Positions 18,436 to 28,363 are shown, counted from the stretch's first letter. The stretch is DNA of 41,254 nucleotides from Hyella patelloides LEGE 07179 (GCF_900659865.1 NZ_LR213792.1:1-41254), one strand, 5' to 3'. Translations and numbers: made by a program. The notes: generated by a model from the sequence alone, not told the origin.

Positions 18436-19077
18436 TTAAAACCCTGCAAAGCCACTTGCTCCTAAGTAAACCTCATTCCAAGAAGGGGGTCTAAAATCTC
18501 GATTCAAACCGCGATCTACATATCCCACCACGCGAGACAATTCTTCTCCTCTGATTTCACCTTGTAAAAACATTTTCAATTTGGTTTCCCAGTCTTGGGG
18601 ATAGTCTCTAATTATGGGATGTTTAACCATCAGCGATTGATATTCCCCTTCGTCGGGATCGACAATAACATCAAGACTGAGAATGCCCAATGAGCGAACA
18701 AAAATACCAGTAGCAGCGATCTCAAAATTCCCATTAACTAGTCTCTGTTTGAGAACGACTACAAAATGTCCTCCTTCGGGGATGTTATAAACCAGCTTAC
18801 TGGGGTCTTTAACTGGTTCAACTTCAATGTTATACCCTTTGGTCAGTCCTTCTTCTAAGGTGACATCTTCGTACTCTTGATCGGGATGGGGTAGATAAAT
18901 CGTAAACTTATGGATATCTAGCCAGGGATTGTATACTGTTTCATCAGTCGTTCGTTTCCAAGCATTATATTGTCCCCGCATTTCTTGACCAACATAACTC
19001 TCGCTATCGCAGATATTAATCAGAGCCATATTGAGAACGCACTGCTCGAATTTATTAAATGCTCCTAAAACTTGCAT
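18436..19077 (-). CDS. conserved-looking hypothetical protein next to a nafY-like gene
   Basis: 213 residues, ATG at 19077, soluble, with no signal peptide or membrane span. Recognisable stretches include FNKFEQCVLNMALINICDSE, the acidic VDPDEGEYQSLMVKHPIIRD, and an aromatic C-terminus (PPSWNEVYLGASGFAGF). I do not recognise the family. It is the last of three minus-strand genes (20489 to 18436) that follow a NafY-like protein, with gaps of 110 and 219 bases. The larger gap contains a repeat. The start codon directly follows tandem copies of a GTTAGTG-type heptamer and has no Shine-Dalgarno. Confidence 0.7.
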   Translation of the reverse strand: MQVLGAFNKFEQCVLNMALINICDSESYVGQEMRGQYNAWKRTTDETVYNPWLDIHKFTIYLPHPDQEYEDVTLEEGLTKGYNIEVEPVKDPSKLVYNIPEGGHFVVVLKQRLVNGNFEIAATGIFVRSLGILSLDVIVDPDEGEYQSLMVKHPIIRDYPQDWETKLKMFLQGEIRGEELSRVVGYVDRGLNRDFRPPSWNEVYLGASGFAGF

Positions 19078-19296
19078 AATGGTTAGTGGTTAGTGGTTAA
19101 TTGTTAGTGGTTAGTCCCGTCAACACTCGCGCGACCGAAGGAAGTCCTTTAGGGCGTTCCTTTGCCGAGGAAGCCTCGGCAGGGGTGGATAGGGGGGACT
19201 TTTCTGGTTTTCTGTTTTGTCTCTCACAGTTAACTGTGGTTTGTTGAAGTCCCCCCATCCCCGCGCTCGTCAAGCGGGATAATATGGTTAATCGTT
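19078..19296. repeat. composite repeat: GTTAGTG tandem copies and a G-rich inverted repeat
   Basis: 19080-19114 holds tandem variants of GGTTAGT. GGGGGGACTT (19192-19201) and AAGTCCCCCC (19247-19256) are perfect inverted arms within longer imperfect arms. The block is bounded by TTAGTCCCGTC (about 19110-19120) and AAGCGGGATAATATGGTTA (about 19273-19291), a pair that recurs around 27144-27192. It resembles a small non-coding mobile repeat inserted between two genes. Confidence 0.55.
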
Positions 19297-19641
19297 CTAG
19301 TCTTCATCCAAAGCGGGAAACGACTCTTCAATTTCCCATAAAATACTCTTGTGAGCGATAAACCAACTGCGAGTTTCTGGAGTCAATTCATCCCAAACTA
19401 AGTCAGGAGAAACATGGGGAGATTCGTATTGATATTGTTGTCCTAGCGATCGCAAATTGCCAGCAACTCCTCTAGGAATACCAAAAGTTAACCAGTCAAC
19501 CTCGACGATTTTACCCGATACACCGCCACTGGGATCGTAAATTAATTGAGCCACTCGAATCAAATCGGCAAAGTGGGTTGGTCTTAATCCCGTTATCTGT
19601 TGAATTTCTCGAATACGCTGTTTATTTTTTTGTATGTTCAT
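19297..19641 (-). CDS. hypothetical protein in the nafY-like cluster
   Basis: 114 residues starting MNIQKNKQRIREIQQITGLR, with a good AAGGA ribosome binding site 7 bases before the ATG. The N-terminal half looks helical (PTHFADLIRVAQLIYDPSGG). The C-terminal half is rich in acidic and aromatic residues (LVWDELTPETRSWFIAHKSI). No family is recognised. It lies 110 bases after the NafY-like gene on the same strand and is probably co-transcribed with it. Confidence 0.65.
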   Translation of the reverse strand: MNIQKNKQRIREIQQITGLRPTHFADLIRVAQLIYDPSGGVSGKIVEVDWLTFGIPRGVAGNLRSLGQQYQYESPHVSPDLVWDELTPETRSWFIAHKSILWEIEESFPALDED

Positions 19642-19751
19642 AATTTATCCTTCTGAGTTTGTCTTTTATCTTTTGTTCTTCGTTATTCATGTAAACATTA
19701 ATGACCAATGATCGATGACTAACTACTGTACAGGCGAAGGTTGGTTTGCCC

Positions 19752-20489
19752 CTATCCACTAACAGCTTTATAATTTTTCACCCTTTCACCTGTCCCAATG
19801 CCTAAAATTTTGGCTAACCAAGGTGGAGGAGAAGTTGCGATCGCTTTTTGTAAGTCTGCTAAGATTTCTCTTGCCGAACCACCCTGAGATACTTTCATGG
19901 GATAAATATAAGCTTGAATAACTTTAGCAGCAGCAGGACCACCGATGGACATAATATAGAGTACGGGACAATCTCTAATTAAATTGACTCGGTAAGTATT
20001 TTTTTCTTCCGCAAGATCGGCTTCTATTGCTGAGCGAACATCGATTAATTTAAGTTCGTCTGCCGATAGCTGATAGATTAAGTAACGATGGCAAGAACCA
20101 AAGTGTCCGTCTAATTGTTCTGCGGTGTTGGAAGCGACGGCAATTCTAATGGAGTTGGGCATATCACCCTCTTCATATGGTTCGATGGGTGAAGATTGCT
20201 CGAAATAACCTGTTTCACCCCAGAGGATTCGTACCGCTTCTTTAAAAGCTTCCATGTCACTGTTATCAACATTTTCTCCTTCTTCTTCACCGTCAATTTC
20301 GTACATCTTGCCAAAGGATTTTTTAAATTGGGTGACTGTAAGTTTACTGAGGGATTTCTCGGTAATTTCTTCATCGTCGAGATTGGTTTGCAAAGCCTCA
20401 ATTAAATCTCCGACAGATACGTTAGGTAATACCTTGGCTGCTAAGGCAATTCTGAGGGCTACTTCGTTGGAAATGGGTTGAGTCGTCAT
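19752..20489 (-). CDS. NafY-like dinitrogenase iron-molybdenum cofactor-binding protein
   Basis: 245 residues in two domains. Residues about 8-65 resemble the helical NafY N-terminal domain (VALRIALAAKVLPNVSVGDL...SLSKLTVTQFKKSFGKMY). Residues about 113-225 are the NifX/NifY/NifB-type cofactor-binding domain (IRIAVASN, LDGHFGSCHRYLIYQ, DCPVLYIMSIGGPAAAKVIQ), with H129 at the position used for cofactor binding in the family. NafY proteins hold FeMo-cofactor or stabilise apo-dinitrogenase. No nif structural or assembly gene is in this window, so a role in nitrogen fixation is inference; other metal-cluster roles are possible. An acidic linker (about residues 67-80) joins the domains. Confidence 0.8.
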   Translation of the reverse strand: MTTQPISNEVALRIALAAKVLPNVSVGDLIEALQTNLDDEEITEKSLSKLTVTQFKKSFGKMYEIDGEEEGENVDNSDMEAFKEAVRILWGETGYFEQSSPIEPYEEGDMPNSIRIAVASNTAEQLDGHFGSCHRYLIYQLSADELKLIDVRSAIEADLAEEKNTYRVNLIRDCPVLYIMSIGGPAAAKVIQAYIYPMKVSQGGSAREILADLQKAIATSPPPWLAKILGIGTGERVKNYKAVSG

Positions 20490-20523
20490 TGTTTTATTTC
20501 TGAATTTGATTTGTTGGGGTTGG

Positions 20524-20550
20524 TAGGGGCGAACCGTAGTTCGCCCTTAC
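20524..20550. repeat. palindromic GGGGCGA..TCGCCC repeat, copy A
   Basis: TAGGGGCGAAC and GTTCGCCCTTAC form an imperfect hairpin in the divergent gap between the nafY-like gene and the beta-lactamase gene. It is followed by AGTTATTAG. Related copies lie at 25373-25398, 31303-31330, 31668-31696 and about 32405-32422. Confidence 0.6.
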
Positions 20551-20644
20551 AGTTATTAGCATCGCGAGTGGGAATAGTTATTAGTTGTTGGTAAAAAACA
20601 GATAACCTGGTAAATTTAAAATCGCTTTTGTTACAAGTGTAATT

Positions 20645-21487
20645 ATGAAAAAACTGCTCAATCTGTTATTGCTATTGGTTTTGGCTGTAGTTGGTAGTTG
20701 GTTTGTTCAAGAACATCGAGTTTATTCACAAAATACACCAGAAATAGAGCAAACAGTTGATTTTAAGCAGCATTTTGATGATTTAGGGGTTAATGGCTCG
20801 ATTATCATTTACGATCGCGATCGAGATAGCTTCTATGAACATAATCCCAGTCGTAATAGCACTGCTTTTCTCCCTGCTTCAACCTATAAAATTCCTAATT
20901 CTTTAATTGCTTTAGAAACTGAAGTAATTAAAGATGATGTCGCTGTTCTTACTTGGGATGGAATTGAAAGAGGTTTGCCTGATTCTCCCATCAAAGAATG
21001 GAATCAAGATTTAAACATTAGTCTTGCTTTCAAGTATTCCGCCGTTTGGTTTTATCAGGTGTTGGCTCGTAGAATTGGTCATCAAAGGATGCAGGATTTC
21101 GTGAATAAAATTCAATATGGCAATCAAAATATTGGTGCAAAAGAAGATATTGACAAGTTTTGGCTCTCAGGAGAATTAAGAATTACACCTCAAGAGCAAA
21201 TTGATTTTCTACGCCGTTTTTATCAAAATGACTTACCTTTTGACCAACGAACTATGGATCTGGTGAAAGACATTATGATCGCCGAACAAACACCTGATTA
21301 TGTGCTTCGGGCAAAAACGGGATGGGCTGCTTCTACCACACCTAGCATCGGTTGGTATGTGGGTTACCTAGAGCAAAACGACAATGTTTATTTCTTTGCT
21401 ACCAATCTAGATATGGATTCGGAAAACGCTCTCCCAGCAAGATTAGAAGTTACTAGACTATGTTTACAGGATTTGGGATTGTTATAG
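20645..21487 (+). CDS. class D (OXA-type) serine beta-lactamase
   Basis: 280 residues with an N-terminal hydrophobic signal segment (residues 4-20). All class D motifs are present: S79-T-Y-K82 (nucleophile and carbamylated lysine), S132-A-V134, Y158-G-N160, W173 in FWLSGELRI, and K224-T-G226. It should hydrolyse beta-lactams in the periplasm, or act as a penicillin-recognising relative; substrate range cannot be read from sequence. It is divergent from the nafY-like cluster, and no regulator (BlaR/BlaI type) is adjacent. No insertion sequence flanks it directly, so it looks chromosomal rather than recently acquired. Confidence 0.92.
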   Translation: MKKLLNLLLLLVLAVVGSWFVQEHRVYSQNTPEIEQTVDFKQHFDDLGVNGSIIIYDRDRDSFYEHNPSRNSTAFLPASTYKIPNSLIALETEVIKDDVAVLTWDGIERGLPDSPIKEWNQDLNISLAFKYSAVWFYQVLARRIGHQRMQDFVNKIQYGNQNIGAKEDIDKFWLSGELRITPQEQIDFLRRFYQNDLPFDQRTMDLVKDIMIAEQTPDYVLRAKTGWAASTTPSIGWYVGYLEQNDNVYFFATNLDMDSENALPARLEVTRLCLQDLGLL

Positions 21488-21712
21488 TTTTGTCATTTGT
21501 CATTTGTCATTTGCTATTGTTCACCTTAAACTCAATTTATATCAGACTGCTTGAAAAATAAGGATTTGAGGCGTTTGCATTAATATAATTAAACGTGTAC
21601 TCAAAATCCTCAGCCCTGTATTTGAAAGTCTTGAACGATTGGATTGGGATCGAGATACGAGTATTTTTTTGAGTTAGTACGGATATATTTAAGTAGCTAT
21701 TTAACCCTAAAG

Positions 21713-21800
21713 GCGATCGCGCCTCAAATATAGACAGGTTAAAGGTTATCGCCGATCTGAGTTGATAATTTTCGATTTGTTATTGCTTGTACTCAATTTA
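21713..21800. repeat. interspersed repeat R, copy 1
   Basis: Begins at GCGATCGC and continues TCAAATATAGACAGGTTAAA, GGTTATCGCCGATCTGAGTT and TATTGCTTGTACTCAATTTA. It lies beyond the 3' end of the DUF5615 gene. Upstream of it (21646-21675) is a second shared motif, CGAGTATTTTTTTGAGTT, also present at 24607-24624. The rest of the 21488-21860 gap holds TTTGTCATTTGTCA tandem repeats but no gene. Confidence 0.7.
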
Positions 21801-21860
21801 GAGTGAACAGTGCTCGCATTAATTTAAAAAGTAACCAGATGATTAGGCTATGATTTCACA

Positions 21861-22193
21861 CTATGCCAACACTAAAATACTTTCCGATTCTCGAACTTCA
21901 AACTCAGAGATCGTATCGAAATTATCTCTCAAAATTTGAACAATTTTTGAGGTTGGACTGTTACCAATACGAAGGTAAATAAATTTGGGCGGATGACCAT
22001 AAAGCAAACTGCGCTGATAAAAATCAGAATCTTTAGAAACGATCGCAAAACCATTGGTTTTTGCATATTCCCAGATAATTGCGTCATCCGTATTTATCAG
22101 CCCTAGAGTCTTAACATGCTCGGAATTGGGATACAAATCGACAATTCTGTGGATAATTCGATCTGATAGGTTTTCATCTAAGAGCAGTTTCAC
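21861..22193 (-). CDS. DUF5615 PIN-like toxin of a type II toxin-antitoxin pair
   Basis: 110 residues. The N-terminal LLLDENLSDRI (D6, E7) and central SKDSDF (D55, D57) plus D36-D37 give the acidic cluster of PIN-like ribonucleases of the DUF5615/Mut7-C group. Such proteins are usually encoded right after a DUF433 antitoxin, as here (30-base gap). The expected role is RNA cleavage held in check by the partner, known from family context and not shown for this pair. Confidence 0.82.
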   Translation of the reverse strand: MKLLLDENLSDRIIHRIVDLYPNSEHVKTLGLINTDDAIIWEYAKTNGFAIVSKDSDFYQRSLLYGHPPKFIYLRIGNSPTSKIVQILRDNFDTISEFEVRESESILVLA

Positions 22194-22219
22194 AGGGACA
22201 CGATAAATAACTTTTTCTC

Positions 22220-22250
22220 GCGATCACGCAGTGCCAGGCTTCGCCTGATC
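22220..22250. repeat. 31-bp palindromic repeat supplying the antitoxin C-terminus
   Basis: Starts GCGATCACGCAGTGCCAG and ends CTGATC. The reverse complement shares an 18-base end, CTGGCACTGCGTGATCGC, with 38733-38750. In the DUF433 gene it encodes the last residues (…DQAKPGTA) and the stop codon. In the unrelated ORF at 38486 the copy does the same. Confidence 0.65.
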
Positions 22251-22439
22251 AGCTGCAAAAGCAAGGCAAGCTTTAATATCCTGGGATGTTAGTTCTGAAA
22301 AGTCTTCAAGAATTTCTGATTCTGTCATGCCACCTGCAAGATATTCTAGAATATCGCTGACAGTAATCCTCATCCCACGGATACAAGGTTTACCACTCCG
22401 CTTTCCAGGCTCAATCGTGATTATATCTCGATAATCCAT
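22224..22439 (-). CDS. DUF433 antitoxin
   Basis: 71 residues with the typical DUF433 pattern IITIEPGKRSGKPCIRGMRI, TVSDILEYLAGGMTESEIL and DFSELTSQDIKACLAFAADQ, a winged-helix-like DNA-binding antitoxin. It precedes the DUF5615 toxin gene. The last about seven residues and the stop codon are encoded by a dispersed palindrome (22220-22250), so its natural end may once have been different. The ATG at 22439 lies close to repeat R copy 2 upstream. Confidence 0.85.
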   Translation of the reverse strand: MDYRDIITIEPGKRSGKPCIRGMRITVSDILEYLAGGMTESEILEDFSELTSQDIKACLAFAADQAKPGTA

Positions 22440-22586
22440 ATCCGCTATTGAGTTATTCTGAACTTTGATTACCCTTTAATAATACTAAAAAATAGAGGCA
22501 AGAAGTAGCAAAGGATGTTATACCCGTACCCGATTTTACTATGGCTTTTGGGTTAACTTTAGGCTAGTTGGTTACTGAAGTAAAGA

Positions 22587-22697
22587 GCGATCGCGTCTAA
22601 AATATAGACAGGTTAAAGGTTAACGCCGATCTGAGTTAATGATTCTTGATGGGCTATTCCTTGTACTCAATTTAAATAGACTCATTAACGTCTTGCT
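22587..22697. repeat. interspersed repeat R, copy 2
   Basis: GCGATCGC at 22587-22594, then AATATAGACAGGTTAAAGGT, ACGCCGATCTGAGTT, CTTGTACTCAATTTAAATAG and ACTCATTAACGTCTTGCT. Lies between the methyltransferase and DUF433 genes. The remaining parts of the 22440-22768 gap contain no gene. Confidence 0.7.
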
Positions 22698-22768
22698 GCT
22701 TCCTGTTTTGTACCATTCTTAGACCGCTAACTATTTATTATCTGTGATATTTGTACTTGAGAGAACAT

Positions 22769-23410
22769 TCACTGGTGTTTCTGAAGCAGCCAAACGTTCT
22801 CTTTTGCTGCACATTTTCCTTTCAATCCACCAGCAACATCAGTGCTTACAATAAGAGATAAATCATAACTATCGCTATAGTGTCGCTCTACTTCTTCGTT
22901 ACTAATTGAAAATGGAGGACCTTCCATCAGGTTTTGATCGTACTCATAGGTAACTAGCAACTGCGGTGCTTTACCCGTAATCTCAGCTAGGTGCGCTGTA
23001 TATCGATTACGCATTTCTTCTGGCAGGGCTACCAAAGCTGCTCTGTCATAGATTGCATCTACTGAGCCGAGGATTTCGCCAGATACATCAAGGATATTGC
23101 CGACAAAGATGTTGATATCTTTTGCACTATAGAGGCTTGCTTCTCCGACTCTTGATATTTTGGGCTTCATACCAAGCTCATCAAATAGCTGCTCGACTGC
23201 CATTTCAACCAATTCAGCACCAGTAACACGATAGCCCTCAAGAAGCAGCCAAGCGATATCGAGAGTTTTGCCACATAATGGCACAAATAGACGGCTGCCT
23301 TTCGATAGAGAAAGCTCTTCAAAATATTTCGCCAGCACTGGGTTAGCTTCACTTTTGTGGAAACCAATGTCATTTTTTTCCCACTTCTGAAGCCAAAAAC
23401 TTGAATCCAT
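22769..23410 (-). CDS. thiopurine S-methyltransferase (TPMT)-like SAM methyltransferase
   Basis: 213 residues from the chosen start. The N-terminus MDSSFWLQKWEKNDIGFHKS matches the canonical TPMT start pattern (FWxxxWxxxxIGFH), so I prefer the ATG at 23410 to the one at 23425; a GGAAAGAG ribosome binding site precedes it. The SAM-binding motif is LFVPLCGKTLDIAWLLLEGY with an acidic AELVEMAVEQLF. DAIYDRAALVALP is also conserved. Such enzymes methylate S, Se or Te in small molecules, often metalloid detoxification. The substrate is unknown. Confidence 0.85.
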   Translation of the reverse strand: MDSSFWLQKWEKNDIGFHKSEANPVLAKYFEELSLSKGSRLFVPLCGKTLDIAWLLLEGYRVTGAELVEMAVEQLFDELGMKPKISRVGEASLYSAKDINIFVGNILDVSGEILGSVDAIYDRAALVALPEEMRNRYTAHLAEITGKAPQLLVTYEYDQNLMEGPPFSISNEEVERHYSDSYDLSLIVSTDVAGGLKGKCAAKENVWLLQKHQ

Positions 23411-23564
23411 GGTTACTCTTTCCAAAGTTTACGGCACATAACTATTTATTATGGGTCAACTTTCTGGATATACACCATGCATGGGATAAATTAAAGAATT
23501 TTTTCATATATTAATGTTGTTTAGATTACAACTTGGATATGATAACAATCTTTTCAGAGATAGA

Positions 23565-23713
23565 GCGATCGCCTTTCAAATAGAGACAGGTTAAAGGTTA
23601 TCGCCGATCTGGGTTGATAATTTTTGATTTATTATTGCTTGTACTCAATTTAAATAGACTCATTAACGTCTTGCTCTACTTTAAGGCTTTGATTGCAACA
23701 ATCCCACCTTCAA
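23565..23713. repeat. interspersed repeat R, copy 3
   Basis: GCGATCGC at 23565-23572, then AATAGAGACAGGTTAAAGGT, ATCGCCGATCTGGGTTGATA and TTAAATAGACTCATTAACGT, running into CTTTAAGGCTTTGATTGCAA, which is the 3' end of the aspartic-protease gene. It lies between the protease and methyltransferase genes. Confidence 0.7.
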
Positions 23714-24047
23714 CTGCTTCAATCTCAACCTTAAACCCATACAGTAAACTCATTCCAATTAGCGGATCTGCTTCGGAAGCTGCAACATCAATAACCCGAT
23801 CTTGTCCATCCCAAATTACACTCGCCTTATACATTTCAAAGATTACCTCGCTTCCATCGCCTAACGTGCCAACATCACGGAAATGCCAAGGTAATCCAAG
23901 AGAGGCAATAATGGATTGTGGTAGGGAAAGAAAACCTGTAAAACCAGTGTCAATTAGAGCTTTAACCATTTGCTTTCGTTTACTAGCATGACCTACTGCA
24001 ACTTGGATAATGGCTTCGCAATTTTGATTAACGAAACCTTGCATCAT
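23676..24047 (-). CDS. clan AA (retropepsin-like) aspartic protease family protein
   Basis: 123 residues. The catalytic motif is D33-T-G in ALIDTGFTGFLSLP and the second conserved element is DPLIGMSLLYGF, a single-domain pepsin-like fold expected to dimerise. Its start overlaps the stop of the upstream 91-residue gene by 4 bases (ATGA), so the two are translationally coupled. Two-gene pairs of this type are frequent in cyanobacteria and are sometimes discussed as toxin-antitoxin-like; the function is not established. Confidence 0.8.
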   Translation of the reverse strand: MMQGFVNQNCEAIIQVAVGHASKRKQMVKALIDTGFTGFLSLPQSIIASLGLPWHFRDVGTLGDGSEVIFEMYKASVIWDGQDRVIDVAASEADPLIGMSLLYGFKVEIEAVEGGIVAIKALK

Positions 24048-24319
24048 GGTGAATTCTTTAGGCTACGAGAACCAAAACGGTAAACTGCCCGATGTCCAAT
24101 CCGAATTACCCAAGGTTGAGCATCTGGATATCGTTCGTAGAGTCGATCGACTGCTGCAATTGGTGTATCGGCTACTTCAAAAGCACCTGTTTCAATATCA
24201 ATCGCTACTATCTTGCCATCATTACCTTCTTCTACTTGTTGACGCACCTGAGATTCATAAATCTCATTACCACGTCGAGCAAATTCTTCTTTGCTGTATC
24301 GTGGTTGTCTCACTGTCAT
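24044..24319 (-). CDS. hypothetical partner of the aspartic protease
   Basis: 91 residues. The N-terminal MTVRQPRYSKEEFARRGNEI, a DGKIVAIDIETGAFEVAD beta segment and WVIRIGHRAVYRFGSRS are seen in proteins paired with the protease family in cyanobacteria. Its stop overlaps the protease start by 4 bases. A role as chaperone or antitoxin of its partner is a guess from gene order. Confidence 0.72.
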   Translation of the reverse strand: MTVRQPRYSKEEFARRGNEIYESQVRQQVEEGNDGKIVAIDIETGAFEVADTPIAAVDRLYERYPDAQPWVIRIGHRAVYRFGSRSLKNSP

Positions 24320-24433
24320 AGGCTTGACCTCGTTTCGTTGGTTATCTTTTCATTTTAACCTGGAGGTTTATAGCAGATGACACCACGACCTATAACTTTA
24401 GGAGAATTATTTGGCTGGTTATTAGAGTGAAGT

Positions 24434-24583
24434 GCGATCGCACTTCAAATAGAGACAAGTTAAAGGTTATCGCCGATCTGATTTGATGATTTTTGATTTA
24501 TTATTGCTTGTACTCAATATTAAATAGACTTATTAACGTCTTGCTCTACTTTAAGGCTTTGATTACAACAATCCCATCTTCAA
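24434..24583. repeat. interspersed repeat R, copy 4, with duplicated protease 3' end
   Basis: GCGATCGC at 24434-24441, then AATAGAGACAAGTTAAAGGT, ATCGCCGATCTGATTTGATG and ATTAACGTCTTGCTCTACTT. The match with copy 3 continues past the repeat into CTTTAAGGCTTTGATTACAA and ATCCCATCTTCAA, a copy of the last about 12 codons of the aspartic-protease gene. This indicates a segmental duplication or the remains of a second protease gene. Confidence 0.7.
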
Positions 24584-24606
24584 AGGATTAGATTTGGATT
24601 GAAATG

Positions 24607-24654
24607 CGAGTATTTTTTTGAGTTTATATCGCGTCTCAAATATAGACAGGTTAA
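24607..24654. repeat. interspersed repeat R, partial copy 5
   Basis: CGAGTATTTTTTTGAGTT followed by CGTCTCAAATATAGACAGGT and TAA, after which the match ends. It joins the two motifs that lie about 50 bases apart in copy 1, so it is a shortened version. Confidence 0.55.
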
Positions 24655-24687
24655 TTGAGTTCAAAGATATGCTCTACCCAACGCTTA

Positions 24688-25203
24688 CTATAACAACGCC
24701 AAAATTCTGTCACGTATTGAAACAATAATTGAATCCGCGAAAATTGCAAAGGATAAACCATAGAAAAACATGCAGGTTGAGAATATCCATGTATTTTTAT
24801 AAGCAGAGATTCCTTTTATACATTCCCTTAAATTTTGAAGCTTGAAGAACATTGACTCCTGTGTCTTCTTGTCGAAGCTTGACGACTTTATTGTCGCTTC
24901 TATTCTATCTGCGGTTTTGAGAAAGTTTTCTTTTCTACCGTCTTTCCTGTGTCCTATTTTGCAATAGAAAAATATATTAAGCACAAACCCAGCTGCCAGA
25001 AGTCGCAGGCTTAAAAATGGGATTGGAATTCCCCAGCAGGCAATAATTGCCAGAAATAGCCAGGGAGCTTCCTGATTAAGTAGCATCTGATGATTGGTAA
25101 CTAGCTGGTGCAGCTTTTCAATCTCTCTGTAAACTTCCACCTCTACTTTGTGGTTGCCTCTGAAGTTAAACAGCCTTATGTATTTAAATATGCTCACAAC
25201 CAA
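24688..25203 (-). CDS. hypothetical membrane protein
   Basis: 171 residues with two hydrophobic blocks near residues 47-78 (WLFLAIIACWGIPIPFLSL, LLAAGFVLNIFFY) and one near 140-160 (IFSTCMFFYGLSFAIFADSI). Between them is a charged, soluble helical loop (RIEATIKSSSFDKKTQESM). No family is recognised. It heads the minus-strand run of modules separated by repeat R. Confidence 0.6.
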   Translation of the reverse strand: MVVSIFKYIRLFNFRGNHKVEVEVYREIEKLHQLVTNHQMLLNQEAPWLFLAIIACWGIPIPFLSLRLLAAGFVLNIFFYCKIGHRKDGRKENFLKTADRIEATIKSSSFDKKTQESMFFKLQNLRECIKGISAYKNTWIFSTCMFFYGLSFAIFADSIIVSIRDRILALL

Positions 25204-25372
25204 TCCCTGCCGTAAACAATTGAACTCTCTATATAAAAGACCTTAGTTAAATCCAATACTATAATTATCAGTATTTAACTAACAATCTTTTTGATAGTAA
25301 AGATCGCTCATACTTTAAATTATATAGCAGGTTAAAAGCGATCGCTCTACCCCAAAAACCAACAACCAATAA

Positions 25373-25398
25373 AGGGCGAATCGCGATTCGCCCCTACA
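25373..25398. repeat. palindromic GGGCGAATCGCGATTCGCCC repeat, copy B, after pntB
   Basis: A perfect 20-base palindrome inside AGGGCG..CGCCCCTACA, ending 4 bases beyond the pntB stop codon. In RNA it forms a 10-bp stem, which could protect the pnt mRNA 3' end or terminate transcription, although no U-tract follows on the minus strand. Confidence 0.6.
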
Positions 25399-25402
25399 AC
25401 AA

Positions 25403-26806
25403 TTACAGTTGTTTTACTTCCCCTACTAACTTGGATACTACATCTTGTGCGCTACCGAATAGCATGGTGGTTTTGTCTTTGTAAAATAGTTCGTTATCCA
25501 CTCCTGCAAAACCTGTTCTCATGCTGCGTTTAATTACAATGGCGTGTTGAGCTTTATCCACATCAATAATGGGCATCCCATAAATAGGGCTGCTATTATC
25601 ATTACGGGCTGCGGGATTGACTACATCGTTTGCACCGATCACTAGAGCTACATCAACGCGCTCGAATTCAGTATTGATATCATCCATATCATACAGGCGA
25701 TCGTATGCAACGTTTGCCTCAGCCAGTAATACATTCATGTGACCTGGCATTCTACCTGCAACGGGATGGATGGCATACTTAACATCGACTCCCATTTTTT
25801 CTAGTTGAGCAGCCAATTCTCTAACACCATGTTGCGCTTGGGCTACTGCCATACCGTATCCAGGAACTATAACCACAGAACGAGCATAACCTAACATCAT
25901 TGCTCCTTCTTCACTGTCGATGGAACGGTAGGTTTTATCAATTTCCGCACCACCTGCGCCACCAACGGCAACGCTATCTCCACCAAAAGCACCAAATAGC
26001 ACGTTGGTAAGAGGTCGATTCATCGCTTTACACATAATTTGGGTCAAAATTAACCCTGAAGCTCCAACTAACGCCCCTGCGACAATGAGCATATTGTTAT
26101 ATAAAATAAAGCCCACAGCACTAGCAGCCAAACCCGAAAAAGAGTTTAATAGAGAAACTACTACGGGCATATCCCCACCACCAATAGGTAGCACAAATAA
26201 AGCCCCAAAAAGTAAAGAGATAGTGGTTAAAGTCAGAAAAATTGCGGGGTTTGCTGGCTGAATTAATAAATAAACGCTACCAGCTAAAAAGCTAGCTAAC
26301 AGTAAAAAATTAAAGGGTTGTTGAAAAGGAAAAGTAACGGGAGAACCTGTAATTAAGCCTTGTAGTTTGGCAAAGGCTAGTAGACTTCCTGTCAGAGTTA
26401 CACCACCAATTAAGACACCTAATATGGCAATAAACGTAGCATCAAGGGGAACAGTACCATTAGCGTCAAGTAATCGCCAAAATTCACCCACTGCCACTAA
26501 AGACGAAGCAGCACCACCAACACCGTTGAAGATACCCACCATTTGAGGCATATCGGTCATGGCTACCTTTTGAGCTGCGATCGCACCAATCAAAGAACCA
26601 GCAATAATACCTACTAAAATCCACTCATAATCGAGTACGGACTGATTTAATAAAGTTGCAATAATAGCAATTAACATTCCCACTGCTGCGAGAAAATTCC
26701 CGTTACGGGCTGTAGCGGGGGAACCTAATTTTTTTAAGCCTAAAATAAACAATGCAGCAGCAGTTAAATAAGCTAGTTCGATTCCTGTATTCAAATATGT
26801 ATTCAT
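25403..26806 (-). CDS. pntB: NAD(P) transhydrogenase subunit beta
   Basis: 467 residues: about eight or nine membrane helices in the first 270 residues, then the NADP-binding domain III (SVVIVPGYGMAVAQAQHGVR, GRMPGHMNVLLAEANVAYD, IGANDVVNPAARND). With PntA1 and PntA2 it forms the proton-pumping transhydrogenase that uses the proton gradient to transfer hydride from NADH to NADP, in the thylakoid or plasma membrane. The start overlaps the stop of pntA2 by 4 bases (ATGA). Confidence 0.97.
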   Translation of the reverse strand: MNTYLNTGIELAYLTAAALFILGLKKLGSPATARNGNFLAAVGMLIAIIATLLNQSVLDYEWILVGIIAGSLIGAIAAQKVAMTDMPQMVGIFNGVGGAASSLVAVGEFWRLLDANGTVPLDATFIAILGVLIGGVTLTGSLLAFAKLQGLITGSPVTFPFQQPFNFLLLASFLAGSVYLLIQPANPAIFLTLTTISLLFGALFVLPIGGGDMPVVVSLLNSFSGLAASAVGFILYNNMLIVAGALVGASGLILTQIMCKAMNRPLTNVLFGAFGGDSVAVGGAGGAEIDKTYRSIDSEEGAMMLGYARSVVIVPGYGMAVAQAQHGVRELAAQLEKMGVDVKYAIHPVAGRMPGHMNVLLAEANVAYDRLYDMDDINTEFERVDVALVIGANDVVNPAARNDNSSPIYGMPIIDVDKAQHAIVIKRSMRTGFAGVDNELFYKDKTTMLFGSAQDVVSKLVGEVKQL

Positions 26807-27096
26807 GTTGTTGTCTCCTTCTTCTTAAACATTTGCAGCATTCTGTCTGTTACTAAAAAACCGCCAACGACGTTAACGGTAGCTAGCACCACGGCAATTA
26901 AGCCCAAGATGGTAGTGACGTTCCATTCCTGCGCTCCAGCAATTAATAATGCACCTACTACAGCAATACCAGAGATGGCATTAGCACCAGACATTAAGGG
27001 GGTGTGCAATGTTGGGGGAACTTTATTAATTACCTCAAATCCGACAAATGATGCCAGAACGAAAACGACTAAGCCTGTTAATAATCCTTCTGTCAT
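26803..27096 (-). CDS. pntA2: NAD(P) transhydrogenase subunit alpha part 2 (membrane)
   Basis: 97 residues with three membrane spans (GLLTGLVVFVLASFVGFEVI, ISGIAVVGALLIAGAQEW, ILGLIAVVLATVNVVGGFLV) and the conserved HTPLMSGANAISG. This is the separate membrane part of the alpha subunit, as in cyanobacteria and other bacteria with three-gene transhydrogenases. It is translationally coupled to pntB. Confidence 0.95.
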   Translation of the reverse strand: MTEGLLTGLVVFVLASFVGFEVINKVPPTLHTPLMSGANAISGIAVVGALLIAGAQEWNVTTILGLIAVVLATVNVVGGFLVTDRMLQMFKKKETTT

Positions 27097-27142
27097 GAGT
27101 TCGACTCCTATTTTTTATGGGTTAGTAGTTGGTATTTGGTAG

Positions 27143-27192
27143 TTAGTCCCGTCCCATCTTCATGGGATAATATCAAGCGGGATAATATCGTT
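27143..27192. repeat. TAGTCCCGTC..GCGGGATAATAT repeat between pntA1 and pntA2
   Basis: TTAGTCCCGTCCCATCTTCA followed by TGGGATAATATC and AAGCGGGATAATATCGTTA. The two ends match the ends of the larger repeat at about 19110-19291. GGGATAATAT is duplicated inside. Both copies begin beside GTTAGT-type sequence. Confidence 0.5.
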
Positions 27193-28363
27193 ACCTACTA
27201 ATAACTAATAAAGCTTCTTTAATACGTTCATTGCGAATTTCTCCAGCATGGGTAACGCAAGCACTGCTGGTAATCTCATCGTCAAAATCTAGTAGCAGCG
27301 AATCGCGATTCGCCTCGACATTTCCATCCTTGGCTAAATATTTCACCAGATTTAAGAGATTTTTGGCATACATCTGGCTAGTGTTAACAGGTACAGTCGC
27401 AGGAAGATTTGTCGAACCAATTACAGTTACGTTATGAGAGTTAATATTTTTACCAGCTTCGCTACAGGCGCAGTTACCACCACTTTCTGCTGCGAGATCG
27501 ACAATTACCGATCCTGGCTTCATTTGTGCCACTGTCTCTTCTGTAATTAATAGTGGTGCTGGCTTACCTGGCACTTGAGCGGTTGTAATAACGACATCTG
27601 CTTTGGCAACATAGGGACTTAAACCCTGACGAATCAGTTCTTGAGTATCGCTCCCAACTTGTTTAGCGTAGCCTCCCTCGGCTTCGGTTTTTTCTTCGAG
27701 ATCGATTTCAATAAAATTACCACCGACACTTTGAACTTGTTCTTTAACAGTGGGACGAATATCAAACCCATCTACTACTGCGCCCAATCTACGGGCTGTA
27801 GCGATCGCCTGTAATCCTGCCACGCCTGCACCCAAAACCAATACTTTGGCTGGGGGGATCGTTCCTGCTGCGGTAGTCATCATCGGAAAAATTCGCGGTA
27901 AACTAGCTGCTGCTAGCAACACTGATTTATAACCTGCAATGTTGGCTTGAGAAGATAATGCATCCATGCTTTGAGCGCGGGTAGAGCGGGGAATTAGCTC
28001 CATGCTAAAAGCTGTAACTTGTCGCTGTGCAAGCTCTTGAGTAACTTGGGGATCGCCCAAAGGATTGAGGAAACTAATCAAAGTTGCTTCTGGTTTGAGC
28101 CAGTCAATTTCTGACCAACCATCTCGCGATCCTGGAGGATTAACTTTCAGCAGGATGTCTGCTTCTCCCCAGAGTAAAGCGGGATCTGCAATTATCTTTG
28201 CTCCTACTGCTTCGTAAGCAGAATCTTCATAACCCGCACCCACACCAGCACCCGCCTCTACCCAAACTTCAAAACCTTGTTTGACCAAGCGGGATACGGT
28301 ATCGGGAACTTGGGCTACGCGAAGTTCTCCTAGCTCGTTTTCTCTAGCAACGGCTATTTTCAT
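27191..28363 (-). CDS. pntA: NAD(P) transhydrogenase subunit alpha part 1
   Basis: 390 residues of the soluble NAD(H)-binding domain I. Alanine-dehydrogenase-like N-terminus (MKIAVARENELGELRVAQVP), Rossmann motif VLVLGAGVAGLQAIATARRL with following GFDIRP, and the conserved QAQSMDALSSQAN-type segment (here STRAQSMDALSSQANIAGYK). First gene of the pntA1-pntA2-pntB operon. The 94-base gap to pntA2 contains a dispersed repeat. Confidence 0.95.
   Translation of the reverse strand: MKIAVARENELGELRVAQVPDTVSRLVKQGFEVWVEAGAGVGAGYEDSAYEAVGAKIIADPALLWGEADILLKVNPPGSRDGWSEIDWLKPEATLISFLNPLGDPQVTQELAQRQVTAFSMELIPRSTRAQSMDALSSQANIAGYKSVLLAAASLPRIFPMMTTAAGTIPPAKVLVLGAGVAGLQAIATARRLGAVVDGFDIRPTVKEQVQSVGGNFIEIDLEEKTEAEGGYAKQVGSDTQELIRQGLSPYVAKADVVITTAQVPGKPAPLLITEETVAQMKPGSVIVDLAAESGGNCACSEAGKNINSHNVTVIGSTNLPATVPVNTSQMYAKNLLNLVKYLAKDGNVEANRDSLLLDFDDEITSSACVTHAGEIRNERIKEALLVISR

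Follow-up and report, generated by a model that had tools for sequence, protein, structure and literature searches.

We analyzed a direct repeat, designated R, in a 41,254-nt stretch of DNA from Hyella patelloides LEGE 07179 (GCF_900659865.1, NZ_LR213792.1:1-41254; in its full length referred to as the window), where copies of R separate small gene modules at positions 21713 to 24654. The sequence comparisons indicated that R is a putative duplicated intergenic spacer of a Uma2 gene (DUF820; a predicted PD-(D/E)XK nuclease) and that the modules are probably not cassettes of the integron type. We consider it probable that unequal recombination duplicated an R-Uma2 unit here and so produced a hypervariable site, at which modules were captured and the Uma2 copies decayed to their 3′ ends. 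The original prediction, which had likened the repeats to a gene-cassette array, missed that R is the spacer beside Uma2, with Uma2 3′ relics at the R borders, and that the copies carry neighbouring sequence pointing to segmental duplication; the original interpretation was partly supported by the results described below.

The presence of one repeat in several copies of the same orientation, predicted at 21713, 22587, 23565 and 24434, was confirmed by a repeat search of the window and by BLAST. The repeat search revealed a 114-nt direct-repeat family starting at 21710, 22584, 23562 and 24431 with ungapped identities of 76-88%, except that R4 showed 68% ungapped owing to one indel and 84% by BLAST. 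The near-full copies were approximately 90-114 bp long and comprised R1 (21713-21800), R2 (22587-22697), R3 (23565-23675), the right end of which abuts a protease stop codon, and R4 (24434-24545). All copies are located on the plus strand between minus-strand modules, and R was found at every module boundary, as had been proposed. The start of R is the HIP1 octamer GCGATCGC; CTTGTACTCAATTT was exact in R1-R3, and GACAGGTTAAAGGTTATCGC was exact only in R1 and R3, with AACGC in R2 and GACAAG in R4. A 24-nt right extension was common to R2, R3 and R4 and absent from R1. The left ends of R were sharp, as were the right ends of R2 and R3, while R4 and R5, a partial copy, carried adjoining gene or spacer sequence. 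A BLAST search of the whole 8.06 Mb genome returned the four copies with E-values of 9e-54 to 7e-25 and the 27-nt fragment R5 with an E-value of 2e-5. Because the next best genomic place reached only E=0.018, R is not a chance resemblance and is restricted to one locus, so the copies are not scattered through the genome. An exact R pattern gave no match in the genome contigs searched.

We compared the same site in related genomes, which are designated here by G numbers. R1 occupies the ancestral position, as orthologous copies were found in situ in G006 and G005. In particular, window positions 21488-21801, which contain the spacer after the beta-lactamase gene (bla) and R1, aligned at 80% over 314 bp with a stretch downstream of the same bla in G006, where one strong R match was present. 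This conserved post-bla spacer (21488-21712, plus strand), which runs into R1, also aligned with G003 (21489-21728, 75%) and with G021 (21534-21737, 78%), in the latter case reaching the first part of R. In G021 (L043 3692-8219), the spacer and the R start directly follow nif-associated genes and bla lies approximately 3.5 kb away, indicating that bla itself moved relative to the spacer. R is located just upstream of a plus-strand Uma2/DUF820 gene in both G006 and G005; in G003, the spacer is followed by a Uma2 gene, with no R present. The full order in G005 is spacer, R, Uma2, two degenerate R copies (R′ and R″), a minus-strand open reading frame (ORF) of 198 aa, and pntB. Only 124 bp separate bla from pntB in G004, with neither R nor modules; in G012, the nif-associated genes adjoin pntB, and neither bla nor R is found there. 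Near pntB in G024, we found R, an acetyltransferase gene and R again, with the relative orientation seen in the window, and in G010 (C369) R was observed after nif-associated genes. The content beside R at the bla-pntB site therefore differs between genomes, ranging from none (G004, G012) to Uma2 (G005, G006) or an acetyltransferase gene (G024), which supports the original interpretation in part.

Intact Uma2 was not found in this region of the window, and we detected two Uma2 3′-end relics on the plus strand by tblastn. Relic 1 (22502-22564) corresponds to residues 159-179 of the G003/G005 Uma2 (67-71% identity, E=5e-6 to 1e-5), and relic 2 (24392-24427) corresponds to the last 12 residues, ITLGELFGWLLE-stop (83-92% identity, E=3e-4 to 6e-4). 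Each relic immediately precedes an R copy, namely R2 and R4, respectively. An intact close Uma2 is present elsewhere in the same genome, at C87, without R. Additionally, two segments beside the right-hand copies proved to be duplicates of neighbouring sequence. Adjacent to R4 lies a duplicated 3′ end of the protease gene (24546-24583, minus strand), with 24520-24583 being 95% identical to 23650-23713 (64 bp; family D3). This is followed by a duplicated left spacer with R5 (24583-24654, plus strand; families D5, 86%, and D2, 96%). A partial copy had been predicted from 24607; it exists, but R5 starts at 24628 (24628-24654, 96% within its family), and 24583-24624 is instead an 86% copy of the left-hand spacer at 21634-21675. 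As R4 is accompanied by the protease 3′ end and R5 by the left spacer, segmental duplication accounts for part of the array. Copies that hold parts of neighbouring genes are a sign of duplication and not of the insertion of a discrete element. Two hallmarks of tandem duplication were observed: the copies hold adjoining non-repeat sequence and truncated gene parts (R4, R5 and the Uma2 relics), and a lower-copy state occurs at the orthologous site, as represented by R beside bla in G006 and by spacer-R-Uma2-R′-R″ in G005.

Similar Uma2 remnants were found in other genomes. The order in G002 is Uma2, a Uma2 3′ relic, a UPF0175/DUF3368 module, R and a second Uma2 3′ relic. All four partial Uma2 copies that passed the filters in 1.1 Mb of fetched loci were 3′ ends; a genome search yielded additional 3′ fragments, together with one or more from the 5′ end, and this 3′ bias is suggestive only. 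The idea that Uma2 is generally tandem or partial was rejected, as a second Uma2 segment was present at only 10 of 80 Uma2 loci, approximately five of which were tandem on the same strand. As a separate observation, an intact Uma2 in Oscillatoriales cyanobacterium USR001 (L116 5441-5812) is followed by a near-identical repetition of its final ~124 bases; the palindrome-like gtttgtagtaagcgctttagcgctaaagcgcttactacaaac lies between the gene and its duplicated 3′ end.

The proposed history of the site would be as follows. The site lies between a conserved block, consisting of nif-associated genes and the beta-lactamase gene, and the pntB-like gene, and its starting state would resemble G005, with spacer-R-Uma2 and more R copies after the Uma2 stop codon. 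Tandem segmental duplication would then have multiplied the unit in this lineage, for which the simplest engine may be unequal recombination of the RecA type, acting between R copies. Unrelated modules on the minus strand would have been taken up between R and the 3′ end of Uma2, and the Uma2 copies would have been deleted to 3′-end relics; we infer both the engine and this order of duplication, capture and decay. Besides the duplicated segments and relics, this history is favoured by the confinement of R to one locus, by R1 in situ in relatives, by the Uma2-containing arrangements of G002 and G010 (C259, described below), and by the states of the site in G004 and G012. Four points weigh against it. 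R2 and R3 diverge at the same right-hand point before different modules, and site-specific insertion would give the same result. The Uma2 relics are nearly all 3′ ends, which is unexpected under simple random decay. No Uma2 relic was recognizable by tblastn before R3, and unit 2 could have another history. Finally, G001, the only genome of the same genus, showed no match to R, bla or Uma2, and no intermediate strains were available.

The common border of R2 and R3 would also be expected if R were a recombination site at which R-module-(Uma2) units are excised and inserted by a trans-acting recombinase or nuclease (perhaps Uma2) in a cassette-like manner without an integron integrase. We regard this explanation as doubtful. 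It would account for R bounding every module in one orientation and for the two R copies that enclose an acetyltransferase gene near pntB in G024, and R starts with HIP1, a frequent cyanobacterial octamer that has been linked to site-specific recombination (PMC4390886). It would also fit an R-protease-Uma2 arrangement at another genomic place in G010 (C259, contig JASJDB010000178.1), where a diverged R at the protease stop codon is followed by the protease pair with 87% DNA identity; the local alignment score of this R was 56, compared with a maximum of 34 in 500 shuffles. However, when the window was compared by BLAST with the fetched flanks of the methyltransferase (TPMT), protease and DUF5615 relatives, the matches included no R except for the diverged copy in G010. 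The relatives of the protease and DUF5615 genes sit at other genomic places, and the best TPMT match was 40% in the sampled genomes of the same family and 62% elsewhere (G045, another family). Moreover, some borders appear imprecise, with the left ends of the Uma2 relics at residues 151, 159, 159 and 176, and the R copies carry duplicated parts of neighbouring genes. No integrase ORF (IntI-type tyrosine recombinase) was recognized among those read in 19000-28000, the rest of the window and genome not being searched. A true cassette array found no support in the integrase reading or in the fetched flanks of the TPMT and DUF5615 relatives, and cassette-like mobility is regarded as improbable. 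A more specific proposal appears quite improbable: R-Uma2 units would form a cyanobacterial cassette-like mobile system, with a PD-(D/E)XK nuclease gene between direct repeats that start with HIP1. This gene would drive small modules, toxin-antitoxin-like ones among them, to be exchanged at R, and recombination would take place at the border formed by the Uma2 3′ end and R. In G010 C259 (L084 1674-2989), we also observed two intact tandem Uma2 genes after the protease pair, separated by a fragment of the 5′ region of that pair.

R might alternatively be a small mobile repeat, of the small dispersed repeat (SDR) or miniature inverted-repeat transposable element (MITE) kind, that was inserted independently between modules. 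The R core has HIP1 at its start, and in several relatives (G002, G024 and G057) another HIP1 closes it approximately 23-24 nt further on; diverged cores are present in other genomes, and Elhai described the SDR5 repeat module as inserting within HIP1 (PMC4390886), between nucleotides 3 and 4 of the octamer. Nevertheless, independent insertion seems unlikely here, since R was found at only one locus of its own genome, and a sequence model of the R core found matches at E<=3e-4 in only 19 of 391 Cyanobacteriales genomes. The copies of ~90-114 bp run into neighbouring spacer or gene sequence, and R1 lies within a conserved spacer. Neither terminal inverted repeats nor target duplications were seen, and the repeat search of the window detected no inverted-repeat pair within the R copies. 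The MITE reading that had been offered earlier is accordingly not supported, given the confinement to one locus and the lack of terminal inverted repeats.

The distances between R and the modules would be compatible with a regulatory or RNA element (promoter, terminator or leader) that is common to the modules and maintained by selection at each of them. For modules 1-3, R is found 115-150 bp upstream of the start codons, which are on the minus strand, and a short way past the following stop codons. This possibility, also raised in the original prediction, is very improbable. With RNA parameters, neither strand of R folded better than its dinucleotide shuffles (z-scores of -1.6 to +0.8), and no attC-like hairpin was obtained. 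An Rfam search of R gave no match, and counts were at chance level for both promoter-like (8 versus 11 expected) and terminator-like (3 versus 2.9 expected) sequences. In G005 and G006, moreover, R precedes a plus-strand gene instead.

To a limited extent, R-like cores were also found beside toxin-antitoxin modules in other Cyanobacteriales, an association that is suggestive only and serves as a lead. Among the 25 families listed for 14 core-match loci, PIN had four members and BrnT, DUF433 and DUF5615 three each (Pfam), the loci of G057 and G097, both within the 14, being orthologous. None of these families was among those listed for 20 loci with weaker matches, a set that was not matched for double HIP1. 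In these two related genomes of another family, three HIP1-initiated direct repeats of approximately 40-120 bp were observed (G057 C1:244000-253000, L254, at ~3229, 4332 and 5178; G097 C167:1-8000, L292). The three copies in each genome share one orientation and form a second array arranged like the first, in which the modules set apart by them are an aspartic protease, a PIN gene pair and a BrnT/BrnA pair. Because the G057 copies helped to build the R-core model and reached approximately E=1e-3 at best with an earlier model, their homology to R is not established. A module swap between the two arrays was considered and rejected, the difference being a ~186 bp deletion inside the protease gene. 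HIP1-bounded elements of ~37 nt (e.g., GCGATCGCATTTCTGATGTAGAGTAAAGAGCGATCGC), some of them tandem, were also seen beside toxin-antitoxin genes in L296 (G207), L297 (G387), L298 (G366) and L293 (G082). A 40-nt double-HIP1 consensus with three mismatches matched only G006 among the 391 genomes, this pattern being too strict. A peak in double-HIP1 spacing appeared in a pool that included loci fetched by the R-core model; it was absent from 712 kb fetched independently by Uma2 and therefore reflects locus selection.

The modules and flanks of the window were assigned as follows. The left conserved flank is a class D beta-lactamase gene (20645-21487, plus strand; NCBIfam NF012161, E=1e-85), the protein of which is 74-85% identical in many relatives. 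The right conserved flank is a 467-aa gene (25403-26806, minus strand) that we take to be pntB; it is full-length and 92-94% identical in six genomes of the same family. The modules between them are all on the minus strand, and three of the four that had been predicted could be given families. Module 1 (21861-22439) is a PIN/antitoxin-like pair of DUF5615 (21861-22193; Pfam PF18480) and DUF433 (22224-22439; PF04255) genes, module 2 (22769-23425) encodes a TPMT-family methyltransferase (TIGR03840, E=1e-78), and module 3 (23676-24319) consists of a clan-AA aspartic protease (23676-24047; TIGR03698) and a 91-aa partner (24044-24319). The predicted membrane protein, module 4, is a 171-aa ORF (24688-25203) without a family match. 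DUF433 (COG2442), which is abundant in cyanobacteria, has been predicted to act as the antitoxin of PIN proteins (PMC2701414). The DUF433 gene carries a short gcgatcacgcagtgccaggcttcgcctgatc at its 3′ end (22221-22255); as the DUF5615/DUF433 pair is ~25 bp shorter in relatives and a 33-nt match to the gcgatcacgcagtgccaggcttcgcctgatc site occurs elsewhere in L210, this segment looks like a small dispersed repeat. A 26-nt palindromic sequence of the GTAGGGGCGAA type was also found in inverted copies at 20523-20548 and 25372-25397, flanking the bla-to-pntB region.

The region provides a concrete and checkable example of the way in which small accessory modules (DUF433/DUF5615, the protease pair and the methyltransferase) may accumulate at one cyanobacterial chromosomal site, and it connects this site with the Uma2 nuclease family, which is abundant but poorly understood. 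Participation of Uma2 in such rearrangements, if it occurs, would suggest a role for a family with many copies per genome. Uma2/DUF820 proteins (COG4636), predicted PD-(D/E)XK nucleases, are abundant in cyanobacteria and have been connected with toxin-antitoxin systems (PMC2701414, PMC4963859, PMC1913061). Tandem Uma2 copies occur among these genes as well, whereas the gene in the window is reduced to 3′-end relics beside a repeat, an arrangement for which no description was found in the literature searched. Integron cassette arrays likewise consist of small modules separated by repeats of one orientation; here, however, the ORFs nearby included no recognizable integrase, R does not fold like an attC site, the copies include parts of neighbouring genes, and in the fetched flanks the modules occur elsewhere without R, except for the protease pair in G010. 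The SDR/HIP1 repeats of cyanobacteria resemble R in that it begins with GCGATCGC and related cores are bounded by two HIP1 octamers, although R is ~100 bp long, found at one locus and not dispersed. The site is also similar to tandem-duplication arrays at hypervariable sites, which arise by recombination between direct repeats and show repeats of one orientation, partial gene copies at unit borders and variable content between conserved genes. In contrast to such arrays, each unit here carries a different accessory module instead of a copy of one gene, and the marks shared by the units are R and the Uma2 3′ ends.

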